A model generated the notes under the pieces. That model was not told where the DNA came from. It did not search any database and was given only the letters and a program-made list of their open reading frames with translations. The position numbers were made by a program, and so were the translations under genes. A stretch of DNA of 64,000 nt from Limnobacter litoralis (GTDB lineage: Bacteria > Pseudomonadota > Gammaproteobacteria > Burkholderiales > Burkholderiaceae_B), in the NCBI RefSeq assembly GCF_030160455.1, contig NZ_BSOJ01000032.1:62001-126000 (forward strand), read 5' to 3'. Below, in pieces: positions 18,261 through 63,961 of this stretch. The first letter of the stretch is position 1. Each line of letters starts with the position of its first letter.

Positions 18261-18948
18261 CTTCAAGTTCAAGCGCCATGACCTGGTTTTTCTGACCCCT
18301 GAAGGCTGCACCGACGCGATCTCTCTCGGCCCCTATCCGATGGAGTCGCACATGGCTGAAGGCAGTTTGTTGTGCTGGTGCATGTCGGGTCATCCGCTGA
18401 TCGTGAGCCGCCAACCCGACCATTTGCCAGACACACACCTTCAGGTTGGATTGGCAGAACCCTATTCGTGGGGGAAGCGCAGGTTGGCATTTTCAGTGCC
18501 TCGCCAGGAAATTGCCCGCCACGAATGCCCGCCTGACATTGCAGAAGTGATACAAAAGCTGAAACTTGCCGACGCCGCACTGTGGCAGAGCCTGGACCGT
18601 TCCTTCACGGCGCTGGGTTTGACACTTCGCGTGTTTGGTTCGGCGGCCCTACAAAGTCTGACCGGTTTGCAGTGCATGCATGCAGACTCCGATCTGGATT
18701 TGCTGGTTCAACCCGAAACACGGGATCAAGCCGATGCAGCGCTCACGGTCATGTCTTCATTCGTGCGACAAAACCCGCAGCTCAGGCTGGACGGAGAAAT
18801 CGTCAATCCAGCGGGGCAGGGCGCTTCCATTCGGGAATGGTTGAAGCGACCAGATACGCTGTTGGTCAAGTCCATTGATCGGGTCGAGCTGATTGCCCAG
18901 GCTGAATTCAATGCCGCCTTTTCTGAAATGGGGGTTCACGCGGCATGA
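18253..18948 (+). CDS. mdcG: Phosphoribosyl-dephospho-CoA transferase MdcG
   Basis: 231-aa nucleotidyltransferase that attaches the prosthetic group to MdcC. It begins with the usual FKRHDLV stretch and contains a nucleotidyltransferase signature: FGSAALQSLTG followed by DSDLDLL with the catalytic D-x-D, around residues 120-140. I chose GTG 18253, which lies 9 bases after a GAGG site; the open frame extends further upstream inside mdcE, but only this start fits the family's N-terminus. Its end overlaps mdcB (ATGA). Confidence 0.9.
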   Translation: MRDFKFKRHDLVFLTPEGCTDAISLGPYPMESHMAEGSLLCWCMSGHPLIVSRQPDHLPDTHLQVGLAEPYSWGKRRLAFSVPRQEIARHECPPDIAEVIQKLKLADAALWQSLDRSFTALGLTLRVFGSAALQSLTGLQCMHADSDLDLLVQPETRDQADAALTVMSSFVRQNPQLRLDGEIVNPAGQGASIREWLKRPDTLLVKSIDRVELIAQAEFNAAFSEMGVHAA

Positions 18949-51739: not shown

Positions 51740-53032
51740 CTATATGCCTGTATTCATACCCAACGCGTGAGGCAGCGCCAAGGACAGTGCTGGCCAGTAA
51801 GTAACTAAGGCAAGGAATATAAGCATGGTGAGCAGCCAGGGCCAAACGGCCACAGTCAGTTCCGTGATACCCATCTTGGTGATGCCCGATGCCACGTACA
51901 GATTCAAGCCCACCGGCGGATGACACATGCCCACTTCCATGTTGACCACCATCAGGATGCCGAAGTGCACCGGGTCAATACCCAGCTTTACTGCAACCGG
52001 GAAAAGGATGGGTGCAAAGATCAGCACGATGGAAGAGGGTTCCATGAAATTGCCAGCAACCAGCAGAATGACGTTCACCGCCAACAAGAACGTGATGGTG
52101 CCCAAACCATGACTCAACATCCAGGCCGCCAGTGCCTGTGGAATGTTTTCATTGGTCATGACGAATGAGAACAACACCGCGTTTGTGATGATGTACAGCA
52201 GCATGGCAGACATGTTGGCAGAGGCCAGCAACACCCTTGGTACATCTTTCAGCCTCAGGTCTTTGTAGACAAAAACTGAAATAACAAAGGCATATACGGC
52301 GCTCATCGCAGCTGCTTCAGTGGGCGTAAAAAGACCACTGTAAATACCGCCCATGACTACAACAATCAGCAGCAAACCCCAAATCGCTTTTCGAAATGCC
52401 ACCCATCTTTCTAGCATGGTGGCTTTTGGCTGCCGTGGGTATTTGTTTTTCCAGGCGCGGTACCAGGTCGTAAAGCCAAGAAAGCTTGCGAGCATCAAGC
52501 CGGGAACAACACCAGCCATAAACATTGCACCTACTGAGGTGTTGGTAGCAACCGAGTACATCACCATCACAATGGAGGGTGGAATCAGAATGCCTAGCGC
52601 CCCTGAGGTAGTGATTACACCCGCACCAAAGCGTTTTGGAAACCCAGCTTTCACCATGGCTGGCATCAGTATCGAACCAATTGCCACCACGGTGGCAGGC
52701 GATGATCCTGATACGGCAGCGAAAAGGGCACAAGCCAGAACACCAGCAAGACCCAAGCCACCATACCAGTGGCCAACAATCGAGGTGGCAAAGTTGATCA
52801 TTCGCTTTGCCACACCACCGTGTGTCAGAAAATTGCCCGCCAGGATAAAAAACGGAATCGCCATGATTTCGAAGTTTTCAATGCCGGTGAACAATTTGAG
52901 CGCCACTGCTTCCAATGGCACATGTGTCATGGTGAACAGGAAGGTCAGTACCGTTAAGCCTAGCGAAATGGAGACAGGCATGCCCGTCAGCATCAGTACT
53001 AGCAGCACTGAGAAGATGATGAGTGCGTTCAT
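51740..53032 (-). CDS. dctM: C4-dicarboxylate TRAP transporter large permease
   Basis: 430-aa membrane protein with about 12 helices and DctM hallmarks: TGMPVSISLGLTV, IPFFILAGNFLTHGG, the SGSSPATVVAIGSI loop, GALGILIPPSIVMV and the C-terminal NMEVGMCHPPVGLNLYV (key part HPPVGLNLYV). It closely follows the classical C4-dicarboxylate DctM pattern. Third gene of the operon; its start overlaps the dctQ stop. Confidence 0.92.
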   Translation of the reverse strand: MNALIIFSVLLVLMLTGMPVSISLGLTVLTFLFTMTHVPLEAVALKLFTGIENFEIMAIPFFILAGNFLTHGGVAKRMINFATSIVGHWYGGLGLAGVLACALFAAVSGSSPATVVAIGSILMPAMVKAGFPKRFGAGVITTSGALGILIPPSIVMVMYSVATNTSVGAMFMAGVVPGLMLASFLGFTTWYRAWKNKYPRQPKATMLERWVAFRKAIWGLLLIVVVMGGIYSGLFTPTEAAAMSAVYAFVISVFVYKDLRLKDVPRVLLASANMSAMLLYIITNAVLFSFVMTNENIPQALAAWMLSHGLGTITFLLAVNVILLVAGNFMEPSSIVLIFAPILFPVAVKLGIDPVHFGILMVVNMEVGMCHPPVGLNLYVASGITKMGITELTVAVWPWLLTMLIFLALVTYWPALSLALPHALGMNTGI

Positions 53033-53649
53033 GAATGGATCTCTTCGAGGGTGGTTTCGTCTTCAAGCCCGTCAACCTGACCATGGTCGTGGTGCGGTAG
53101 CTCGCCTGTGCGGTGGAACACCCATGCGACTTGCAGAAAGCGGAAGCACATTAACGCCGAACCCAAGGGAATAGCGCTGTACACAGCCCAGGTTGGCCAT
53201 TCCAGATCGGGGGTTATGGGGCCTTCGTAAAGACCATCAAGATTGAGGCCCAGAAAATGGTAAATGGCATAGTGCGCGCCATTGTCCCATACGAAATGTC
53301 CACCCAGAACTGCAATCACAATCGTAAACAGGGCGCCAGCAAGCAAACCAAATATAACCATCATGCCCTTGTACGGGGTTTTCAACTTGTTGAGAACCAC
53401 GTCCACGCCAACGTGAATACCTGTGCGAACGCCGTAGGCTGCGCCAAATTTGCAAACCCAGACAAACATAATGATGCAGAGTTCTTGAGCCCAGCCAAAG
53501 TTCAGGCTGAGCAAATAATCTTGTAGGTAGGGTATTGAGTAACCCGATAAGTACCTGTGAACAACCGCCACAAAGATAATCAGTGTGGCGGCGCCCATCA
53601 GGAAAGTTATCAAGGCTTCTTCAAGGTGGTTAAGAACCTTGTTGAGCAT
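53029..53649 (-). CDS. dctQ: C4-dicarboxylate TRAP transporter small permease
   Basis: 206-aa membrane protein with four hydrophobic helices (about residues 15-35, 55-75, 98-120, 150-170), including the WAQELCIIMFVWVCKFGAAYGVRTGIHVGVD stretch typical of DctQ (key part GVRTGIHVGVD). A hydrophilic acidic and His-rich C-terminal tail follows. It lies 35 bp after dctP and overlaps dctM. Confidence 0.9.
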   Translation of the reverse strand: MLNKVLNHLEEALITFLMGAATLIIFVAVVHRYLSGYSIPYLQDYLLSLNFGWAQELCIIMFVWVCKFGAAYGVRTGIHVGVDVVLNKLKTPYKGMMVIFGLLAGALFTIVIAVLGGHFVWDNGAHYAIYHFLGLNLDGLYEGPITPDLEWPTWAVYSAIPLGSALMCFRFLQVAWVFHRTGELPHHDHGQVDGLEDETTLEEIHS

Positions 53650-53684
53650 GAAAATCTCCAGAACTTTGAAAAAACCTTTCGGCT

Positions 53685-54722
53685 TTACATCTTGGCAGGA
53701 TCAAACCCAGTTGCCTGGTATACGGCCTTGATTGTGGATGCACCGATGCGAGATTCCATGTCCTTGTGCACTTTCAGCAGAGTCTTTTTCCACTCTTTCT
53801 TTTCAGCTGCTGTGGGTGTGTACACGGTTGTTGTACCGGCCTTGATCACAGCTTGCAAGTCTTCATCGTTCTTGGATTTTGCGATGGAGTTGCCGTAGTC
53901 GGTGGCTTCTTTCATCGCTTGTGTCAGTTCAGTGCGAATGTCTGAAGGCAGACCGTCCCAGAACTTCTTGTTCACAATCACTGCGTAGCCCAGGTAACCG
54001 TGGTTGGTCAAGGTCAGGTACTTCTGAACCTCATTCATTTTCTGGGTGTAGAAGTTGGAAATCGGGTTTTCTGTGCCGTCTACAACGCCGGTTTGCAGAG
54101 CCTGATACACCTCAGAGAAAGCCATGGTCTGAGGAATTGCACCCAGAACACGCATTTGGTCTTCCAGCACCTTGGAAGACTGGATACGCAGCTTTTTGCC
54201 TTTCAGATCGTCAGGAACGTGGATGGGGGTGTTGGCGGACATGGATTTGAAACCGTTGTCCCAGAAGGCCAGACCTTTGATGCCGCGTGGCTCCAGCTTG
54301 GCCAACAGTTCTTGGCCGACTTTGCCTTGTGTCACTTTGTGCAGGTCGTTGTAGTCGTCGAAAATGTAAGGCAAGTCGAATACTTCAAATTCTTTCACGC
54401 CCAGTGGACCAAACTTGGCCAATGACGGGGCCAGCATTTGGACTGAACCCACCTGCAGCGCTTCCATTTCTTCTTTGTCTTTGTACAAAGTGGAGTTTGG
54501 ATACACCTCTACCTTGACGCGACCCTTGGTCAGTTCAGCTGCCTTTTTGGCAAAGAAGTCTGCAGCCAGACCCTTGGGGGTGTCTTTGGCAACCACGTGG
54601 CTGAATTTGATAACGATGGGTTGAGCGTCAGCGGCCCACACTGAGGTTGATGCAGTTGCTGCGAAAACCACAGTTGCTACTGCTTTGGTGATGCTGGAGG
54701 TTAGCCATTTGTTGGATTTCAT
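53685..54722 (-). CDS. dctP: C4-dicarboxylate TRAP transporter binding protein
   Basis: 345-aa exported binding protein. The signal peptide runs to about residue 30 (TASTSVWA|AD). The mature domain has IVIKFSHVVAKDTPKG, VEVYPNSTLYKDKEE, FDLPYIFDDYNDL and KKLRIQSSKVLED with the dicarboxylate-binding Arg, close to the DctP of Rhodobacter-type systems; succinate, fumarate and malate are the usual ligands. ATG 54722 is preceded by AAAGGAG. First gene of dctPQM, behind a 15-bp palindrome in the promoter region. Confidence 0.92.
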   Translation of the reverse strand: MKSNKWLTSSITKAVATVVFAATASTSVWAADAQPIVIKFSHVVAKDTPKGLAADFFAKKAAELTKGRVKVEVYPNSTLYKDKEEMEALQVGSVQMLAPSLAKFGPLGVKEFEVFDLPYIFDDYNDLHKVTQGKVGQELLAKLEPRGIKGLAFWDNGFKSMSANTPIHVPDDLKGKKLRIQSSKVLEDQMRVLGAIPQTMAFSEVYQALQTGVVDGTENPISNFYTQKMNEVQKYLTLTNHGYLGYAVIVNKKFWDGLPSDIRTELTQAMKEATDYGNSIAKSKNDEDLQAVIKAGTTTVYTPTAAEKKEWKKTLLKVHKDMESRIGASTIKAVYQATGFDPAKM

Positions 54723-54798
54723 TGTTGCTCCTTTGGTTGTGTTGACAAGTTCAACAAGAAGAGCATAGTGGATTGCAGCAGTTTTAAAAGTTGGGAAC

Positions 54799-54813
54799 TT
54801 CCACATTGTGGAA
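54799..54813. promoter_or_regulatory. Perfect palindrome in the dctP promoter region
   Basis: TTCCACA-T-TGTGGAA, a perfect 15-bp palindrome 77 bp before the dctP ATG. GGAA-type half-sites are reminiscent of IclR-family operators; no such regulator is in the window. I found no sigma-54 promoter for dctP, unlike DctD-controlled systems. Confidence 0.55.
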
Positions 54814-54864
54814 ACCACGCAGAGGATTTCCCGAGCATGGCGAAATCCCTGCGTTTGAAGGCAT

Positions 54865-55689
54865 TTAGCGGGATAAGTTTTCGTCAAGTGTTTCCGATTG
54901 AACACCGATGACTTGTTCATGAAACTGCCGCCAGATGTTCTGCCCGATGGTGTCGAGTTGTTCGACAGTTTTGAAATAGGTGGCGCGGCTTTGCGCGTCT
55001 ACCCACTCATCGGGCAAAAGCGGGTCATGCCTGACCAGTCTGATGTGATGGCTGCCTAGCAAATAGGATTCTTTGGCAGCCACTTCCAGCCCCAGCGTTT
55101 CATGGCGATCAAGCCATTGCTTCAGTGTGTCGGTTTCTTTCTTGTAAGACGCATTGAGTTGCGCCGGATCCCAGAGATTCTGGATGTCTTGAAGCGTGTG
55201 CGTTTGGAACTCTTTGGCCACAAACAGGTGGCAGTCTGGTGCAACACCCATGTTGACCAGTCGTGCTTTCAGGGTGTCCAGGTCCTTTTCAACGTTGTCC
55301 GGACGTATGAACAGGCCCTGTTCAAGTTCACGAAATCCACAGAGCTCGAAGGCGGTTTCTCGCTGTTTGAGTATGGTGCGGTTGGTTCGCCCCATGTGGT
55401 TGGTGTAGGCCACTGTGTAAAAACCCGTCCACGGGCGGGCGCGTTGCATCTGCAAGGTCCAGTTACTAACCCGTGCACCAATGCCTTTGGTTGCGCGGCC
55501 CAGGGTGTAAATGCCCCGTGCCGTGGATTCAATTTCCTGCTCAGCAGTTAACCGGGCCAGTGCAACACGAGTGCTGCCTTGCGCGACGCCGAACAGTTCA
55601 CAGGCAGCCACCAGGTCTTTGGCGCTGACCGACTGGCCCTTGGCCGCCAGCAGCAGCCCCAGAATGAGTTTGCGCGGTTGTATGGTCAT
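54865..55689 (-). CDS. PaaX-family transcriptional regulator
   Basis: 274-aa regulator with the three-part PaaX pattern: N-terminal winged helix (LILGLLLAAKGQSVSAKDLVAACELFGVAQGSTRVALARL; key part GSTRVALARL), a central Cas2-like domain (WTGFYTVAYTN, GFRELEQGLFIRPDN) and a C-terminal helical domain with the DPLLPDEW motif. PaaX represses phenylacetate genes by sensing phenylacetyl-CoA, but no paa genes are nearby, so another CoA thioester or target is possible. ATG 55689 chosen over TTG 55707; no strong ribosome site is seen. Confidence 0.82.
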   Translation of the reverse strand: MTIQPRKLILGLLLAAKGQSVSAKDLVAACELFGVAQGSTRVALARLTAEQEIESTARGIYTLGRATKGIGARVSNWTLQMQRARPWTGFYTVAYTNHMGRTNRTILKQRETAFELCGFRELEQGLFIRPDNVEKDLDTLKARLVNMGVAPDCHLFVAKEFQTHTLQDIQNLWDPAQLNASYKKETDTLKQWLDRHETLGLEVAAKESYLLGSHHIRLVRHDPLLPDEWVDAQSRATYFKTVEQLDTIGQNIWRQFHEQVIGVQSETLDENLSR

Positions 55690-55780
55690 GGCATGTTCAA
55701 GAAGCAAAATAATGCCTCAGTGTAAAGCGACCTGCGCAATTGATCTAAAAGTGACTCCCGTGTGCTTGAGGATTTAACGA

Positions 55781-56152
55781 TTATTCTGCGTATTCGATTG
55801 GGGGAAGTGCTGCGAATTCTTCATCGGAATACAAGCGTGAACGGGTCAGGAAGCGGAATCCGGTGGGGCGCTCCAGGCTGAACATGCCGCCGTTGCCTTT
55901 GACGATGTCGATGGTGAGGTGAGTGTGCTCCCAATAGGTAAATTGGGATTTGCTCATGTAAAAAGGAACGCCGCCGATTTCACCCAGTTTGACATCCTGG
56001 CCTCCCAAGGGAAATTCGTGACGTGGAAACAGCATGGGAGCACTGCCGTCGCAACAACCGCCACTTTGATGAAAGATGACGTCGCCATGCAGGGCCTTCA
56101 GGGTTTTAATCAGTTCGATCGCGGGTTCAGTGGCACTGACTCGGGTGTTCAT
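55781..56152 (-). CDS. DUF779 protein, aldehyde dehydrogenase companion
   Basis: 123-aa protein of the DUF779 family. The conserved GGCCDGSAPML with paired Cys near residues 32-36, LGEIGGVPFYMSKSQF and the WEHTHLTIDIVKG stretch are all present. Such genes nearly always sit next to NAD-dependent acetaldehyde/aldehyde dehydrogenases; an acetaldehyde-related or metal role has been guessed, not shown to my knowledge. It follows the aldehyde dehydrogenase by 87 bp with its own GGAG site. Confidence 0.88.
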   Translation of the reverse strand: MNTRVSATEPAIELIKTLKALHGDVIFHQSGGCCDGSAPMLFPRHEFPLGGQDVKLGEIGGVPFYMSKSQFTYWEHTHLTIDIVKGNGGMFSLERPTGFRFLTRSRLYSDEEFAALPPIEYAE

Positions 56153-56239: not shown

Positions 56240-57760
56240 TTAGAAGAAGCCCAGTGCGTTGGGGCTGTAGCTGACCAACAGGTTTTTGGTCTGTTGGTAG
56301 TGATCCAGCATCATCTTGTGGTTTTCACGTCCGATACCAGATTGCTTGTAGCCGCCAAATGCTGCGTGGGCAGGGTAGAGGTGGTAGCAGTTGCTCCACA
56401 CACGACCCGCCTTGATGCCACGGCCCATGCGGAAGAGTTTTGCTCCGTCGCGTGTCCAGACACCGGCACCCAATCCGTACAGGGTGTCGTTTGCAATCGC
56501 CAGGGCGTCCGCTTCGTCCTTGAAGGTTGTCACTGACAACACAGGGCCGAAGATTTCTTCCTGGAAAATACGCATTTTGTTGTGGCCTTTGAAGACCGTG
56601 GGCTTGACGTAGTAGCCGCCAGCCAGATCACCTGTCTGCTTGTTTTGCTCGCCACCGATCAGGCACTGGGCACCTTCCTGTTTGCCCAGGTCAATGTAGC
56701 TCAGGATTTTTTCCAGTTGCTCGGAAGAAGCCTGCGCGCCAATCATGGTGGTGGCGTCCAACGGGTTGCCCATTTTGATTTTGCCAACGCGGTCGATGGC
56801 ACGCTCAATGAAGGCGTCGTAGATGCTTTCCTGAATCAGGGCGCGAGACGGGCAGGTGCACACTTCACCCTGATTCAGGGCAAACATGGCAAAGCCTTCC
56901 AGACACTTGTCGAAGAAGGCGTCGTCGGCGTCCATGATGTCTTCAAAGAAGATGTTGGGCGATTTGCCGCCAAGTTCCAGCGTGACGGGGATCAGGTTTT
57001 GTGAAGCGTACTGCATGATCAGGCGACCGGTCGAGGTTTCACCGGTGAATGCAATTTTCGCGATGCGTGGATTGGAGGCCAGGGGTTTGCCCGCTTCCAG
57101 ACCAAAGCCGTTGACGATGTTGAGCACGCCTGGGGGCAGCAGGTCGGCGATCAGATCCATCACCACCAGCAGGGACGCTGGCGTTTGTTCGGCGGGCTTG
57201 AGCACCACGCAGTTGCCGGCGGCCAATGCGGGGGCCAGCTTCCAGGCGGCCATCAGAATCGGGAAGTTCCAGGGAATGATCTGGCCGACCACGCCGAGTG
57301 GTTCTTTGAAGTGGTAAGCGTAGGTTTCGTGATCGATTTCGCAGATGCTGCCTTCTTCGCTGCGGATGCAGGATGCGAAGTAGCGGAAGTGGTCAATGGT
57401 CAGCGGAATGTCGGCGGCCATGGTTTCACGCAGGGGTTTGCCGTTGTCGAGTGTTTCGGCCACAGCAACAAGGCGCAGGTTCTCTTCGATACGGTCTGCG
57501 ATCTTGTTCAGAATGATGGAACGCTGTGTAGGTGATGTTTTACCCCATGCGTCCTTGGCAGCGTGGGCGGCATCCAGCGCCATTTCAATGTCTTCGGCCT
57601 GCGAGCGGGCAACCTTGCAAAGCAGTTGGCCTGTCACCGGGGTCAGGTTGTCGAAGTATTGGCCACCTTTGGGGGCGACCCATTTGCCGCCAATGAAGTT
57701 GTCGTACTGTGCCTTGAATGGAAAGCTGACGCCCAGCTTTTGCTCGTCGAGCATGTTCAT
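56240..57760 (-). CDS. NAD-dependent aldehyde dehydrogenase (ExaC/AldB-like)
   Basis: 506-aa aldehyde dehydrogenase. Cofactor motif [23 protein letters not shown], general base Glu in [14 protein letters not shown] and the catalytic Cys in [11 protein letters not shown] are visible. The length and N-terminus ([13 protein letters not shown]) match ExaC-type acetaldehyde dehydrogenases acting after quinoprotein ethanol dehydrogenase. ATG 57760 follows AGGAG. A near-perfect sigma-54 promoter lies 43 bp upstream, and DUF779 follows; all point to oxidation of the aldehyde made by the PQQ enzyme of this locus. Confidence 0.92.
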
Positions 57761-57801
57761 ATCCCTTCTCCTGTTTGTGGTAATGATGGTGAAGGGACTA
57801 G

Positions 57802-57819
57802 CGCAACCTGCGTGCCAAG
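57802..57819 (-). promoter_or_regulatory. Sigma-54 promoter of the aldehyde dehydrogenase
   Basis: Minus strand TTGGCACGCAGGTTGCG: -24 TGGCACG and -12 TTGC with exactly 10 bp between the GG and GC. This is essentially the consensus. Transcription would start near 57791, about 30 bases before the ATG. Confidence 0.85.
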
Positions 57820-57919
57820 GGGCCAAGGAGCGATGTTCGGCAATCGCTTGCAGATTGCAGGGACGTTGTTAGGAACTCGATTGCCGCAAAGTGTGCATGA
57901 ATATTAAAAAGTGTTAAAT

Positions 57920-57945
57920 CAATTATGCAGGAAATTGCATAATTG
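57920..57945. promoter_or_regulatory. 26-bp dyad upstream of the aldehyde dehydrogenase promoter
   Basis: Perfect 10-bp arms CAATTATGCA and TGCATAATTG around GGAAAT. It lies about 130-155 bp upstream of the predicted aldehyde dehydrogenase start site, where enhancer-binding proteins usually bind, and just past the stop of the regulator gene. It could also form an AT-rich hairpin ending the regulator transcript. Confidence 0.5.
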
Positions 57946-57952
57946 TGTTCTG

Positions 57953-59050
57953 TCAGGACATGCCTGCCAAAAACGTTTCAAGTGGTTGCACCTGTCCAAT
58001 GTTGATCGGGGTGTAGCCCACTGTGCTTGCAATGGATTGAACCACTGCATCAGATTGAAGCCAGGGGATCAGAATCGACATGGCTGGAAAGTTGAGATCG
58101 TCTTGGTGAACCACCAGAAAATATTTTTCCTGATTCAGCGGTCTGAATTCAAGTTGGTAATGATCCGCAGAGGCCTTCAGGCCAAGGCCCAGGTCGCCAT
58201 GTCCGGCCGCGATGGCGCATGCCACGGCAAGATGCGAGTTTTCTTCGTGGTAATAACCGGGCAATTCTTCGGGCGACAGGCAAGCCCTGGCTATCAGACT
58301 GTCCAGTTGGTGATGCGTGGAGCTGGCCGGGTTTCTGTTGACCAGTTGGGCCTGGCGAAGCGCCACGTCCTGCAAGGTCGGTGGGCGGCTGCTTGGGCGA
58401 CTGATCCAGCCCATTTCCCGTTCAAACAGTTCTACCACAGCAAGGTTGGAGCCCCGAAGGTATCGCCCCATGATTTGATGCACTTGCGTGTGGCTGTTGG
58501 ATTGGAGTGGCAGATGGCAGCCTGCCACCTTGACTTCCCCTCGGTGCAGGGCGGACAGGGCCGCAATACTGCCGGCCCATCGCATGGACAGTTGAAGTTC
58601 TTTGTACAAGGCTGACTGGTTAAACAGGCGCTGCAGCACCGGGTCGTCGCTCATGGCGAGGCTGATCCAGGGCTTGTTGTGTTCGGTGTCCAGCCACTCG
58701 GCATTGATTTGTTCGACGTTCAAGGCCAGCTCAGGTGCAACTCTGATTCGGCCCTGCTCGATCATCCAAAGCACCTTTTTGCCAAACGGCGTCAGGCAGG
58801 CTCCGGCGCGCCCCTGTGTGGCAATGACAGGCTCGTCCAGCAGCTCATTGAATTTCTGAACCTGGTTCCAGAGTGTGCGATACGACACGTCCAGTTGCTT
58901 GCAGGCCAGCGACAGGGAGCCTTTGCGATGAATGGCCCAAAGGATGTCGAAGAAGGTGTCCTCCAGTGCGACAGTGTGACCTGCTTGCGTGGTCCAGGTG
59001 GCGGTGACGTTTAAATTCAGCATGCGATGTGACAGGAAATTGCAGGTCAT
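57953..59050 (-). CDS. Regulator with ModE-like HTH and PBP-like ligand domain
   Basis: 365-aa protein. Residues about 25-110 form a LysR/ModE-type winged helix: DILWAIHRKGSLSLACKQLDVSYRTLWNQV then GRAGACLTPFGKKVL (key parts LDVSYRTLWNQV and LTPFG). Residues about 135-350 match the periplasmic-binding-protein-like domain attached to such HTHs (PF12727-type), with DDPVLQRLF, GCHLPLQSNSH, NRNPASSTHHQLD and AAGHGDLGLGLK. The ligand is unknown; oxyanions or aromatic/alcohol-derived acids are possibilities. It sits between the aldehyde and PQQ alcohol dehydrogenases. ATG 59050 or ATG 59025 could be the start. Confidence 0.8.
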   Translation of the reverse strand: MTCNFLSHRMLNLNVTATWTTQAGHTVALEDTFFDILWAIHRKGSLSLACKQLDVSYRTLWNQVQKFNELLDEPVIATQGRAGACLTPFGKKVLWMIEQGRIRVAPELALNVEQINAEWLDTEHNKPWISLAMSDDPVLQRLFNQSALYKELQLSMRWAGSIAALSALHRGEVKVAGCHLPLQSNSHTQVHQIMGRYLRGSNLAVVELFEREMGWISRPSSRPPTLQDVALRQAQLVNRNPASSTHHQLDSLIARACLSPEELPGYYHEENSHLAVACAIAAGHGDLGLGLKASADHYQLEFRPLNQEKYFLVVHQDDLNFPAMSILIPWLQSDAVVQSIASTVGYTPINIGQVQPLETFLAGMS

Positions 59051-59121
59051 AGATTACCCGCAGTTGGTTTGTTGTTGCGAGTGCCGTCAGCAATATGTGT
59101 GCATGGACCTGTAGCAAGTCA

Positions 59122-59181
59122 TGAGACAGGGTGTGTCACACGGGTGTCACATTTTGAAACAGCCCTGTTTTTTCTGTCTCA
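59122..59181. promoter_or_regulatory. Nested repeats upstream of the PQQ dehydrogenase promoter
   Basis: Three elements: outer inverted repeat TGAGACAG (59122-59129) and CTGTCTCA (59174-59181); direct repeats of TGTCACA at 59134-59140 and 59145-59151, 11 bp apart; palindrome AAACAG-CC-CTGTTT (59157-59170). They end only 20 bp before the -24 element, closer than usual for an enhancer, and could bind the activator or a repressor. Confidence 0.55.
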
Positions 59182-59199
59182 AATTCGGCTTCTCAGGCC

Positions 59200-59216
59200 T
59201 TGGCATGAAGCTTGCG
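59200..59216 (+). promoter_or_regulatory. Sigma-54 promoter of the PQQ alcohol dehydrogenase
   Basis: TTGGCATGAAGCTTGCG: -24 GG at 59202-59203 and -12 GC at 59214-59215 with 10 bp between. Only one base of the TGGCACG core differs. The start site would be near 59227, about 80 bases before the ATG. Confidence 0.8.
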
Positions 59217-59306
59217 CCTACCTCATTCGGGTCGTCTGTAATCCGCTGGATGCAGGGCGAATCACCTCAATAAAGCAAACGGATGAAAGAAGAGGAGAAA
59301 TAAGAA

Positions 59307-61052
59307 ATGCGCAAGAAACTAATCGGCGCCATGGTTGCAGCTGCATTGGCCGTTCCGGCTTTTGCTGCTGACATTACGGCAGACATGATCAAGAACGATG
59401 CCAAAACGACAGACAACATTCTGACCGCAGGCTTGGGTACGAACGGTCAGCGTTACAGCCCGTTGACAGACATCAACACCAAAAACGTGGCACGCCTGGT
59501 GCCAGCCTGGTCTTTTTCGCTGGGTGGCGAAAAGCAGCGCGGTCAGGAAAGCCAGCCGCTGGTGGCCAATGGCAAGATTTTCGTGACAGGTTCTTATTCA
59601 CGCATTTACGCGCTGGACGAAAAAACTGGCCAGGAATTGTGGAAGTACGAGCAGCGTCTGCCAGACGGCATCATGCCTTGCTGTGACGTGGTTAACCGCG
59701 GTGCCGCCCTGTTCAAGAACATGGTGATCTTCGCCACGCTGGACGCACAACTGGTTGCTTTGGACCAGGACAGCGGCAAGGTGGTCTGGAAAGAAAAGAT
59801 TGACGACTACTCAGCAGGCTACTCAGCCACTGCTGCACCCTTGATCGCAGACGGCTTGTTGCTGACTGGTGTGTCAGGTGGTGAATTCGGTATCGTTGGA
59901 CGCATTGAAGCGCGCAACCCTGAAACCGGTGAACTGGTGTGGACTCGTCCAACCGTTGAAGGCCACATGGGCTACACCTATGACAAGGACGGCAACAAGC
60001 ACGAGAACGGCATTTCAGGCACAACCAATGCCACATGGAAGGGCGATCTCTGGAAAACCGGTGGTGCCTCAACCTGGATGGGCGGTACATACGACTCCAA
60101 GACTGGTTTGGCCTACTTCGGTACAGGCAACCCAGCACCCTGGAACAGCCACCTGCGCCCCGGCGACAACCTGTTCTCATGCTCAACCGTGGCTGTAGAC
60201 GTTCACACTGGCAAGATTGTGTGGCACTACCAAGGTACACCGAACGACGGATGGGACTTTGACGGTGCCAACGAGTTCGTTACTTTTGACGGACCCAAGG
60301 GCGAGCGCCTCGGCGGCAAGGCCGACCGCAACGGCTTCTTCTACGTGCTGGACGCCAAAGACGGCAAGCTGAAAAACGCCTTCCCGTTTGTACGCAACGT
60401 GAACTGGGCCAAGGGCATCGACATGAAAACCGGTCGCCCGATTTATGATCCAGAACACCGCCCAGGTGACCCCACTGCCACCGATGGCAAGAAAGGTCAA
60501 TCCGTGTTCTCTACACCTTCATTCCTGGGTGGCAAGAACCAGCAGCCTATGGCTTACAGCCCCAAGACTGGCATGTTCTACGTGCCTGCCAACGAGTGGG
60601 GCATGGAAATCTGGAATGAGCCTGTGACCTACAAGAAAGGCGCGGCTTACCTGGGTGCAGGCTTTACCATCAAGACCATTCCTGGCCTGGATTACATCGG
60701 CGCACTGCGCGCCGTGAACCCAGAGACAGGCAAGATCGTTTGGGAAATCAAGAACCAGGCTCCGCTGTGGGGTGGTGTGTTGACAACCGGTGGCGATCTG
60801 GTTTTCTGGGGTACGCCTGAAGGTTACCTGAATGCGGCTGACGCCAAGACAGGCAAAGTGCTTTGGAAGTTCCAGGTGGGTACTGGTGTGGTTGCTCCTC
60901 CCGTCACCTGGAAAGACAAAGATGGTACTCAGTACGTGGCTGTGATGGCTGGCTGGGGTGGTGCAGTTCCACTCTGGGGTGGCGAAGTGGCCAAGAAAGT
61001 GCGTCACCTTGAGCAAGGTGGTTCACTCTGGGTATTCAAGTTGATGAAGTAA
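59307..61052 (+). CDS. PQQ-dependent alcohol dehydrogenase, lanthanide type
   Basis: 581-aa periplasmic quinoprotein. The signal peptide is residues 1-20 (AVPAFA|AD). It has the eight-bladed propeller repeats with W-motifs, the vicinal disulfide Cys125-Cys126, metal ligands Glu193 (GGEFGI) and Asn275 (GTGNPAPWN), and catalytic Asp317. Asp319, two residues on (W-D-F-D-G), is the extra acid that marks lanthanide-dependent enzymes (XoxF, ExaF, PedH); calcium enzymes have a small residue there. Substrate is probably ethanol or other short alcohols, judging from the ExaC-like partner. No cytochrome c domain or adjacent exaB-like gene is present. Confidence 0.92.
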
Positions 61053-62027: not shown

Positions 62028-62790
62028 GGTGGTGTGTTTGTGACATTTTCCAGATGAACCAGTCGGCCAGTGTGGCGCGGCGGGTTTGAGTCACGCTTTG
62101 ATCAGGAAGTTGGTCCAGTGCCTGGACCGGGGTGCCTGTCCATTCAATTCGACCTGCGCGTAAAAAGGTGACACGATCGCAGTCCTGCGCTTCGTCCATG
62201 AGGTGGGTGGCGACCAGAATGCTGAGGTGATTGCGTTCTTGGAGTGACTTCAGGGTCGACCAAAGCAGGCCTTTGGCGCTTGGGTCAAGGGCGGTGGTGG
62301 GCTCGTCGAGAATCAATACCTTGGGGTTGTGCACCAACGCCCTGGCGATGTCGACCAGGCGTTTTTGACCGCCAGACAGTGCCCCCACCGGCTTGTGCAA
62401 GTAGGCCTTGATGGGCAGGCTGTCGCACAGTTCGGCAATGCGTGGTGAGATCTGCCTTTCTGACATGCCTTGCAGACCGGCTGCAAATTCGAGGTTTTGC
62501 AGAACCGACATGAATGGGTCCAGCGACACCGACTGAAATACGAAGCCCAATGATTTTCGGGCAGTCAGTGCCTGTTGGCGAACGTCAACCCCATTGACCT
62601 GTATGTGGCCTTCTGCAGGGTTGACAAGCCCGGCAATCAGGCTGATCAGTGTGGTTTTGCCGCCCCCGTTGGGGCCGAGCAGGCCCAACATTTCCCCCGG
62701 GTTCAGCGTCAGGCTGACCCGGTGAAGCGTGGGAGTGTCCAGCCAGGAAAAAGAGATGTTTTCAGCGAGTATGGTGGGGATCTGCTGCAC
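62020..62790 (-). CDS. ABC transporter ATPase of the PQQ-alcohol oxidation locus
   Basis: 256-aa ATPase. Walker A GPNGGGKTT, Q-loop FVFQSVSLDP, signature LSGGQKRLVDIARAL and Walker B KVLILDEPTTALD are complete, with the H-loop VATHLMDEA. It is of the subfamily found beside PQQ alcohol dehydrogenase systems. The GTG start at 62790 lies inside the end of pqqE (29-bp overlap), so pqqE, ATPase and permease are probably one operon running right to left. No ribosome site stands out. Confidence 0.87.
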   Translation of the reverse strand: MQQIPTILAENISFSWLDTPTLHRVSLTLNPGEMLGLLGPNGGGKTTLISLIAGLVNPAEGHIQVNGVDVRQQALTARKSLGFVFQSVSLDPFMSVLQNLEFAAGLQGMSERQISPRIAELCDSLPIKAYLHKPVGALSGGQKRLVDIARALVHNPKVLILDEPTTALDPSAKGLLWSTLKSLQERNHLSILVATHLMDEAQDCDRVTFLRAGRIEWTGTPVQALDQLPDQSVTQTRRATLADWFIWKMSQTHHHD

Positions 62791-63961
62791 TTAGATGCAC
62801 CGAGTTCTGGTCGTTTCGATACCATACCACGGGTTGTTCCAGCCCTTTGGCCAAGCCAATGTGTTGCGGCTTTTGCACCTTTAAAATAGGCGTATCAGGC
62901 GAGTCGGATTGGGCTTGGTTGACGAAATTGACCACCTGCTGGTGGTGCGGGCTTTTGTGACAGACGGGGTCTGCGTGGGTGGCGTCTCCGGTGATCAGGT
63001 AGGCCTGACATCGACATCCGCCAAAGTCTTTTTCTTTGTCAGGGCAGGTTTTGCAGGGGTCTTTCATCCAGCTGTCGCCGCGGTATTTGCCGAAGGCCTC
63101 CGAGTGTTGCCAAATGTCCTTGATTGGTGTGGTGGTGACGTTGGGAAATACGAAGCCCGGTAACATGCGGGCGGCCTGGCAGGGCAGGGCCGTGCCGTCG
63201 GGGGCTATCGACAAAAACACATTGCCCCAGCCGCTCATGCAGGCTTTTGGCGTTTTCTCGAAATAGTCGGGCACCACATACAGCAATTTCATGCTGTTGC
63301 CCAGTTTCTTGCGCCACGCCTGTACGCGTTCTTCGGCAAACTTCAGCTGGGCGTGTGTGGGTATCAGCGCGGCCTTGTTTTGATAGGCCCAGCCATAGTA
63401 CTGCGTGTTGGCCAGTTCGAGATATTCCACACCCAACTTGTGCGCCAGTTCGATGATGGCGTCAATGTGATCCAGATTCAGTCTGTGAAGCACCACGTTG
63501 AGCACCATGGGCCAGCCATACGCCTTCACGGCGGTGGCAATTTCCAGTTTTTTCTCAAAGGTTTTGGTGTCTGACAGCGCGTCGTTGGCCGCCTGTGTGG
63601 CGTCCTGAAAGCTGACTTGAATGTGGTCCAGGCCAGCCGCCTTCAAGCAGTTCAGACGATCGGGTTTAAGCCCGATACCTGAGGTGATGAGATTGGTGTA
63701 ATAGCCCAGGTCATGGCCATATTGCACCAGCTCTTCCAGATCGTCGCGCAGCAGGGGTTCACCCCCGGAAAAGCCAAGCTGAACCGCACCCAAAGCGCGG
63801 GCCTGCTTCATGGTGTCTTTCCACTGCTCAGTGCTGAGTTCGGCCGTTTGGCGTTTGTAATCGATCGGGTTGTAGCAGAACACGCAATGCAGCGGGCAGC
63901 GGTAGGTGAGTTCAGCCAACAACCACAGCGGGCCCTGGGGCGTTGGCTTTGAAGTGCTCAA
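62762..63961 (-). CDS. pqqE: PQQ biosynthesis radical SAM enzyme PqqE
   Basis: 399-aa radical SAM/SPASM protein that crosslinks Glu and Tyr in the PqqA peptide. The SAM cluster cysteines are Cys22, Cys26 and Cys29 (RCPLHCVFCYNP), followed by FSGGEPLLR. The C-terminal SPASM cysteines appear in KACMSGWG, ALPCQAAR, DPCKTCPDKEKDFGGCRCQAY (key part GGCRCQAY) and DPVCHKS. The TTG start overlaps the stop of the preceding gene (TTGA). The C-terminal about 30 residues extend beyond the usual PqqE end. It supplies the cofactor for the dehydrogenase of this locus. Confidence 0.93.
   Translation of the reverse strand: MSTSKPTPQGPLWLLAELTYRCPLHCVFCYNPIDYKRQTAELSTEQWKDTMKQARALGAVQLGFSGGEPLLRDDLEELVQYGHDLGYYTNLITSGIGLKPDRLNCLKAAGLDHIQVSFQDATQAANDALSDTKTFEKKLEIATAVKAYGWPMVLNVVLHRLNLDHIDAIIELAHKLGVEYLELANTQYYGWAYQNKAALIPTHAQLKFAEERVQAWRKKLGNSMKLLYVVPDYFEKTPKACMSGWGNVFLSIAPDGTALPCQAARMLPGFVFPNVTTTPIKDIWQHSEAFGKYRGDSWMKDPCKTCPDKEKDFGGCRCQAYLITGDATHADPVCHKSPHHQQVVNFVNQAQSDSPDTPILKVQKPQHIGLAKGLEQPVVWYRNDQNSVHLSAADPHHTR

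Follow-up and report, generated by a model that had tools for sequence, protein, structure and literature searches.

The ped/exa clusters of Pseudomonas contain genes for an aldehyde dehydrogenase (ALDH), PQQ genes and an SBP, all shared with the cluster described here, and the likeness extends to a PedH-like alcohol dehydrogenase (ADH) and the cytochrome c PedF. Their control runs through a hierarchy of LuxR-type and two-component regulators (PedR1/AgmR and PedS2/PedR2), unlike the enhancer-binding protein (EBP) found in our case. The accessible parts of the literature on the ped system yielded no Sigma-54 control of pedE or pedH, and whether pedE uses a specific sigma factor is called unknown there (PMC6115532). 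Sigma-54 dependence has been reported for exaA of Azospirillum brasilense, which needs both Sigma-54 and the LuxR-type EraR (Singh 2017, as cited in the available portions of PMC6115532 and PMC12826043). An earlier note on the DNA analyzed here had stated that known exa/ped systems use LuxR-type or two-component regulators and that control of a lanthanide-type enzyme by a Sigma-54 EBP would be a different wiring. The first statement is, given exaA (PMC6115532), not supported as it stands, and the second has to be narrowed, as Sigma-54 on a quinoprotein ADH was already on record. What the two organisms share is a quinoprotein alcohol dehydrogenase gene under (here predicted) Sigma-54 control, whereas the activator of exaA is of the LuxR-type and the one found here an AAA+ EBP of the GAF-type with palindromic sites, the enzyme moreover being of the lanthanide-type by sequence. 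What still sets the present case apart is that a GAF-type EBP of the one-component kind, with sites of its own, apparently serves a lanthanide-type ADH and the accessory genes.

Other described regulators resemble the system in part. BmoR of Thauera butanivorans is an alcohol-responsive Sigma-54 EBP that, like the protein described below, has an upstream site and lacks a phosphorylation residue; it drives an alkane monooxygenase from a site 193 bp upstream, and the likeness is one of description (PMC8899819, accessible part). EtgR of Paracoccus denitrificans is a Fis-family activator encoded beside alcohol and aldehyde dehydrogenase genes and required for expression; its targets are NAD-dependent enzymes, unlike the PQQ enzyme here, a sigma factor is not mentioned in the accessible portion of the text, and its kinship to the EBPs derives from annotation (PMC12214560). 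In Clostridiales, the predicted AorR and AdhR regulons place aldehyde oxidoreductase and ADH genes under EBP control, but these predictions are computational and concern alcohol synthesis in anaerobes, and no PQQ enzymes were found described in the available part of the source (PMC6615313). Finally, a region in a Burkholderia bug symbiont is similar in gene content (PQQ-ADH, pqq genes and a regulator annotated as 'sigma-54-dependent Fis family'), but the accessible part of that paper was not found to describe promoters, sites or a regulon (PMC9088363). Among the papers listed in our searches of the open-access literature, none came up that describes a lanthanide-type PQQ-ADH under the control of an AAA+ EBP, and none linking Limnobacter, alcohol dehydrogenase and PQQ.

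We analyzed a stretch of 64,000 nucleotides of Limnobacter litoralis (the window) together with the DNA that follows it. Sequence comparison indicates that the ALDH and ADH genes very probably both have Sigma-54 promoters, and we consider it likely, with good confidence, that the two elements are part of a wider regulon, run by a one-component EBP, that serves alcohol oxidation in the periplasm. The features concerned are the following (window positions, unless a contig or locus is named):

55781-56152, minus strand: DUF779 protein (domain match), probably in the ALDH operon
56240-57760, minus strand: aldehyde dehydrogenase of the ExaC family (Aldedh; NCBIfam AcaldDHExaC, 940.1 bits, cut-off 900)
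57801-57818, minus strand: Sigma-54 -24/-12 element of the predicted ALDH promoter, reads TTGGCACGCAGGTTGCGC on 57818-57801
57953-59050, minus strand: regulator of 365 aa with HTH_1 and PBP_like domains, between the ALDH and ADH intergenic regions
59145-59161, no strand: putative EBP-binding palindrome (UAS) TGTCACATTTTGAAACA, 38 bp 5' of the ADH element
59200-59217, plus strand: Sigma-54 -24/-12 element of the predicted PQQ-ADH promoter, reads TTGGCATGAAGCTTGCGC
59307-61052, plus strand: PQQ-dependent alcohol dehydrogenase, lanthanide-type by sequence (TIGR03075, 743.6 bits; WDFDG)
62762-63961, minus strand: PqqE (TIGR02109, 518.7 bits), with pqqC, pqqB and pqqA next, beyond the window end
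L009:8949-9023: pqqA-like ORF, named by eye, with a Sigma-54-like site and UAS 5' of it
C32:129851-132352 (L009:10851-13352, window-equivalent 67851-70352), minus strand: EBP gene, 3.9 kb past the window end

Lanthanide-type enzymes of this family carry an Asp two residues past the catalytic Asp. The ADH of the window has the motif WDFDG, as has 6zcw (with 6zcv the closest solved chains), whereas 1flg has WDFSG, and its residues D317 and D319 are invariant in 6 sequences. The enzyme is thus of the lanthanide-type (PedH/ExaF) by sequence, in agreement with what had been proposed. Its closest paralogues in Limnobacter, those of genomes G004 and G009, are of the calcium-type (WDFSG). In both, the 600 bp preceding the alignment start lack a Sigma-54 site, and around 20 kb contain no exact palindrome of the kind discussed below. 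In a further scan of the paralogues, which began at the first in-frame ATG and thus possibly inside the gene, one on C27 showed an element with 2 mismatches and, near it, a palindrome with 1 mismatch. The ALDH-DUF779 pair is annotated in Variovorax too, where acs, ALDH, DUF779, SBP, pedF, EBP and pqqBCDE form one run.

Both -24/-12 elements can be read directly from the sequence: each contains TTGG-N10-GC within a sequence of the TGGCAC-N5-TTGC kind, which puts 10 bp between the GG and the GC and confirms the spacing reported before. The ALDH element itself is real, although the interval given for it earlier (57802-57819) is off by one base and reads CTTGGCACGCAGGTTGCG. It starts 58 bp 5' of the ALDH ATG at 57760 (55 bp when counted to the preceding codon), and the ADH element starts 107 bp 5' of the ADH start. 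Compared to the textbook Sigma-54 consensus TGGCACGNNNNTTGCW, the window holds 22 sites with at most 2 mismatches on both strands. Only the ALDH element comes within a single mismatch, which makes it the best of the 64 kb; the ADH element is one of the 21 sites with 2 mismatches. Dinucleotide shuffles of the intergenic stretches (189 bp for ALDH, 256 bp for ADH) equalled or beat the ALDH element in 42 of 20,000 cases and the ADH element in 553 of 20,000. The claim that the matches are unlikely by chance holds for the pair; taken singly, the ADH element would not stand out. A looser scan of the window (at most 3 mismatches) gave 462 matches versus 479.5 +/- 21.5 in shuffles, i.e. no signal, and such scans were dropped as evidence because their matches did not exceed the shuffles. 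The pattern TTGGCAYGNNNNTTGC, which was tuned after both elements were known and whose counts carry that bias, has 7 exact matches across the 3.01 Mb of the genome, and the alcohol cluster accounts for 3 of them (ALDH, ADH and cytochrome c); with at most 1 mismatch it occurs at 80 places versus 21 for the reversed pattern. These shuffle and genome-scan figures suggest function without proving it. A Sigma-70 scan of 57700-59400 returned one weak promoter-like site versus a shuffle mean of 0.9, and as this is about the shuffle level no alternative promoter can be named in that region. The genome contains a single Sigma54_DBD match, rpoN.

Conservation provides a stronger argument for the elements than the shuffle odds. 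Across 12 Limnobacter loci, one of them that of the window, the cluster is largely syntenic; elements were counted there only where the gene start was present. The 16-bp ADH element shows a mean identity of 98% to the 11 other loci, while windows clear of it reach 15-44% (ungapped, and thus a low estimate for the flanks). For the ALDH element the mean identity over 7 other Limnobacter is 71% and two windows just 3' of it also reach 60-64%; as its column identity is weaker, the ALDH case rests more on the presence of the site. With at most 1 mismatch, the ADH element was present in all 12 loci and the ALDH element in 8 of 8, ALDH not being found in the other 4 within the stretch covered. Elements with at most 2 mismatches were recovered 5' of the porin gene (12/12), the EBP gene (11/11), the cytochrome c gene (11/11, assuming a start 3' of the longest-ORF start in the window's genome), the FeS-AOR pair (7/7; AOR, aldehyde ferredoxin oxidoreductase) and the pqq genes (8/12).

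The wider set comprised the best 80 of at least 514 ADH relatives from named genomes, the first nine being Limnobacter. We found the ADH element (at most 2 mismatches, within 350 bp) in 65 of these 80 best-matching loci, versus 1 for the reversed pattern and 10 for the opposite strand; 11 of the 15 loci in which it is absent have an EBP match nearby. The 71 lower-ranked loci, none of which is titled Limnobacter, were scanned with a wider window of 490 bp. Here, the element was present 5' of ALDH in 20 of 21 cases (reversed pattern 1/21), cytochrome c in 28 of 29 (0/29), pqqB in 12 of 12 (0/12) and ADH in 56 of 71 (1/71). None was recovered in the same loci for FeS-AOR (0/11) and SBP (0/23), and the EBP gene had its own element in 8 of 26, without a palindrome.

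A gene of the AcoR/NtrC family, for which the earlier note had proposed to search the flanks, was indeed encountered beyond the window end. This EBP gene adjoins a porin gene and pqqAB and is divergent from the gene of the cytochrome c-550 PedF. The protein contains a GAF domain (93-221), a Sigma54_activat domain (378-541) with the GAFTGA sequence at 449, and an HTH_8 domain (790-829); a receiver domain is not among the 11 families matched. It passes no NCBIfam cut-off among the matches listed (25 of 28) and, with DhaR at 287.6 bits versus a cut-off of 551, is called DhaR-like and not filed as DhaR. In terms of its predicted domains it is a one-component regulator of AcoR/DhaR-like architecture. 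Its matches among solved structures are AAA+ relatives only. There are 8 Sigma54_activat matches in the genome, five at full strength, and the other four full EBPs, as read from their sequences, look like non-GAF proteins, namely two response-regulator types (DctD- and NtrC-like), a PrpR-like one and a fourth type. An EBP match covering the GAF domain was present in 31 of the 80 ADH loci, and in 18 of the 49 with more than 9 kb on both sides. A plasmid search with the EBP returned 65 records; the Variovorax and Burkholderia ones examined have it beside pqq genes, with the annotation of a sigma-54-dependent Fis-family regulator.

Alignment of the Limnobacter upstream regions yielded a recurring palindrome, TGTNNCANNNTGNNACA, the form of which fits the TGT-N10-12-ACA kind of site given for several EBP groups of Clostridiales, AorR and AdhR among them (PMC6615313, accessible part). 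It was found at 9 places in the window's genome of around 3 Mb versus 1 for the reversed pattern, and at 4-11 places versus 0-3 in ten other Limnobacter. Exact copies are located at the ADH, pqqA, cytochrome c, FeS-AOR and EBP promoters, whereas the porin has palindromes with 2 mismatches only. In the window's genome the distance to the element is 57 bp for pqqA and 78 bp for FeS-AOR. The palindrome between the EBP and cytochrome c genes lies 12 bp from the EBP element and 111 bp from that of cytochrome c, and may serve the divergent cytochrome c promoter instead of that of the EBP. As the motif was derived in Limnobacter, it was evaluated in the 55 loci outside the defining set that have the ADH element and enough upstream DNA: 44 carry the palindrome when up to 2 mismatches are allowed, versus 6 for the reversed pattern, and with no more than 1 mismatch the counts are 22 versus 2. 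In the two Limnobacter examined on this point, G007 and G011, a palindrome and a 2-mismatch Sigma-54-like site also lie 5' of an acs-like gene, and one of the two proteins, that of G007, was confirmed to be an acetate-CoA ligase; in the window's genome a palindrome near a contig end lies beside a fumarase gene like the acs neighbour in G007 and G011. Another precedes the PQQ-linked SoxYZ-like carrier/metallohydrolase pair (L176:4732-6612), which lies outside the ADH cluster here and inside it in L074.

Within the reading that we prefer, the GAF-AAA+-Fis EBP of the cluster would bind the TGTNNCANNNTGNNACA palindromes some tens of bp 5' of the -24 element, sense the alcohol or the aldehyde derived from it, and hydrolyze ATP to open RNA polymerase-Sigma-54 at the target promoters. 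The predicted targets are ADH, pqqA, cytochrome c (PedF) and the aldehyde oxidoreductase (tungsten-type by family). The sites speak less strongly for the remaining candidates, which are the porin, the EBP's own gene, ALDH and the acetate-CoA ligase; for ALDH in particular EBP control is presumed.

This last point leaves some room for the EBP to serve the ADH side only, with the ALDH Sigma-54 promoter under another EBP, a scheme that overlaps with the preferred one. In the window, 400 bp of the ALDH promoter region contain no palindrome even when 2 mismatches are allowed, and such a palindrome was recovered within 300 bp of ALDH in just 3 of 8 Limnobacter. Nevertheless, in the 71 other loci every ALDH promoter that has a Sigma-54 site (20 of 20) is accompanied by a palindrome (at most 2 mismatches), versus 1 of 20 for the reversed pattern, and the other EBPs of the genome look, from sequence, to be of the DctD, NtrC, PrpR and non-GAF types mentioned, so that we regard a division of labour as unlikely.

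It is clearly improbable that the Sigma-54 promoters answer to a LuxR/NarL-type response regulator instead. Such an arrangement has a precedent in exaA of Azospirillum (PMC6115532, available part), and a two-component pair, consisting of a NarL-family response regulator and a HisKA_3 kinase, is encoded at L175:3612-5370, around 2 kb beyond the oxidoreductase gene that comes after AOR. Against it stand the presence within the cluster of an AAA+ EBP with GAFTGA and the palindromes flanking the promoters, which are of the kind listed for several EBPs. The region around this pair (L175:3612-7797, 3' of the AOR genes) also encodes a TonB-dependent receptor, and together these genes could conceivably function in lanthanide sensing and uptake.

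The regulator at 57953-59050, which is absent from the earlier note and lies between the two promoter regions, could be the main controller, with the Sigma-54 elements in a minor or accessory role. It is found in the cluster in 11 of the 12 Limnobacter loci, and its ModE-like N-terminal domain (NCBIfam, below cut-off) and molybdopterin-linked domains would fit a metal or cofactor signal for an aldehyde oxidoreductase. Yet the regulator was matched in only 7 of the 71 other loci, at 31-32% identity, while the elements persist there, and proteins of the HTH_1/PBP_like type are not known to act as Sigma-54 activators. We therefore consider this very improbable. As a separate observation, the regulator has molybdopterin-linked relatives, and its cluster also encodes an aldehyde ferredoxin oxidoreductase. 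Chance similarity, for which the shuffle-level loose scans and the two textbook mismatches of the ADH site might plead, can practically be discarded given the recovery of the ADH element in 65 of 80 loci (reversed pattern 1/80) and its preservation amid diverged flanks.

If the regulon under the GAF-type EBP exists as proposed, many Burkholderiales run their lanthanide-type alcohol oxidation through a Sigma-54 switch that costs energy, is tightly off and takes its signal from a ligand sensor in the cytoplasm. This would contrast with the Pseudomonas model, where control lies mainly with two-component and LuxR-type regulators. In Limnobacter, a tungsten-family aldehyde oxidoreductase would be tied to the same switch as alcohol oxidation. 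Regulator, site and target list are defined and hence directly testable, and the EBP could yield new alcohol-responsive sensors like BmoR. A further-reaching and improbable extension is that in many Burkholderiales one cytoplasmic GAF-type EBP runs a complete lanthanide-linked programme from alcohol to acetyl-CoA, comprising PQQ-ADH, PQQ synthesis, cytochrome, porin, ALDH, aldehyde oxidoreductase and acetate-CoA ligase, and that the GAF domain, or an interplay with the ModE/PBP-like regulator, makes the Sigma-54 output metal-dependent, i.e. a lanthanide or tungsten switch based on Sigma-54 in place of a two-component system.

Some minor observations relate to the surroundings of the cluster and to the remaining palindromes. 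Two matches, C9:176105 and C28:39213, were taken as chance as both lie inside ORFs. In the window's genome, the copy at C32:145862, situated between a TonB-receptor gene and the next operon, is not accompanied by a convincing Sigma-54 site; in four relatives (L182-L185) a 2-mismatch site lies 5' of the corresponding palindrome, toward the next operon, which would put the palindrome downstream of the promoter. The cluster is followed by the gene of the tungsten-family aldehyde ferredoxin oxidoreductase, together with those of an FeS protein and of an oxidoreductase of the pyridine-nucleotide type (L009:16778-18998 and L175:124-1473). The AOR genes have their own conserved Sigma-54-like element in Limnobacter, none having been seen in the other loci, and in L082 (G001) two tandem 1-mismatch Sigma-54-like elements precede FeS-AOR, at 18607 and 18713 in the ADH-plus orientation. 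On the other side, the ALDH-DUF779 pair is adjoined by TRAP transporter genes (DctP and apparent membrane subunits) and a PaaX-like regulator (51740-55707, minus strand).
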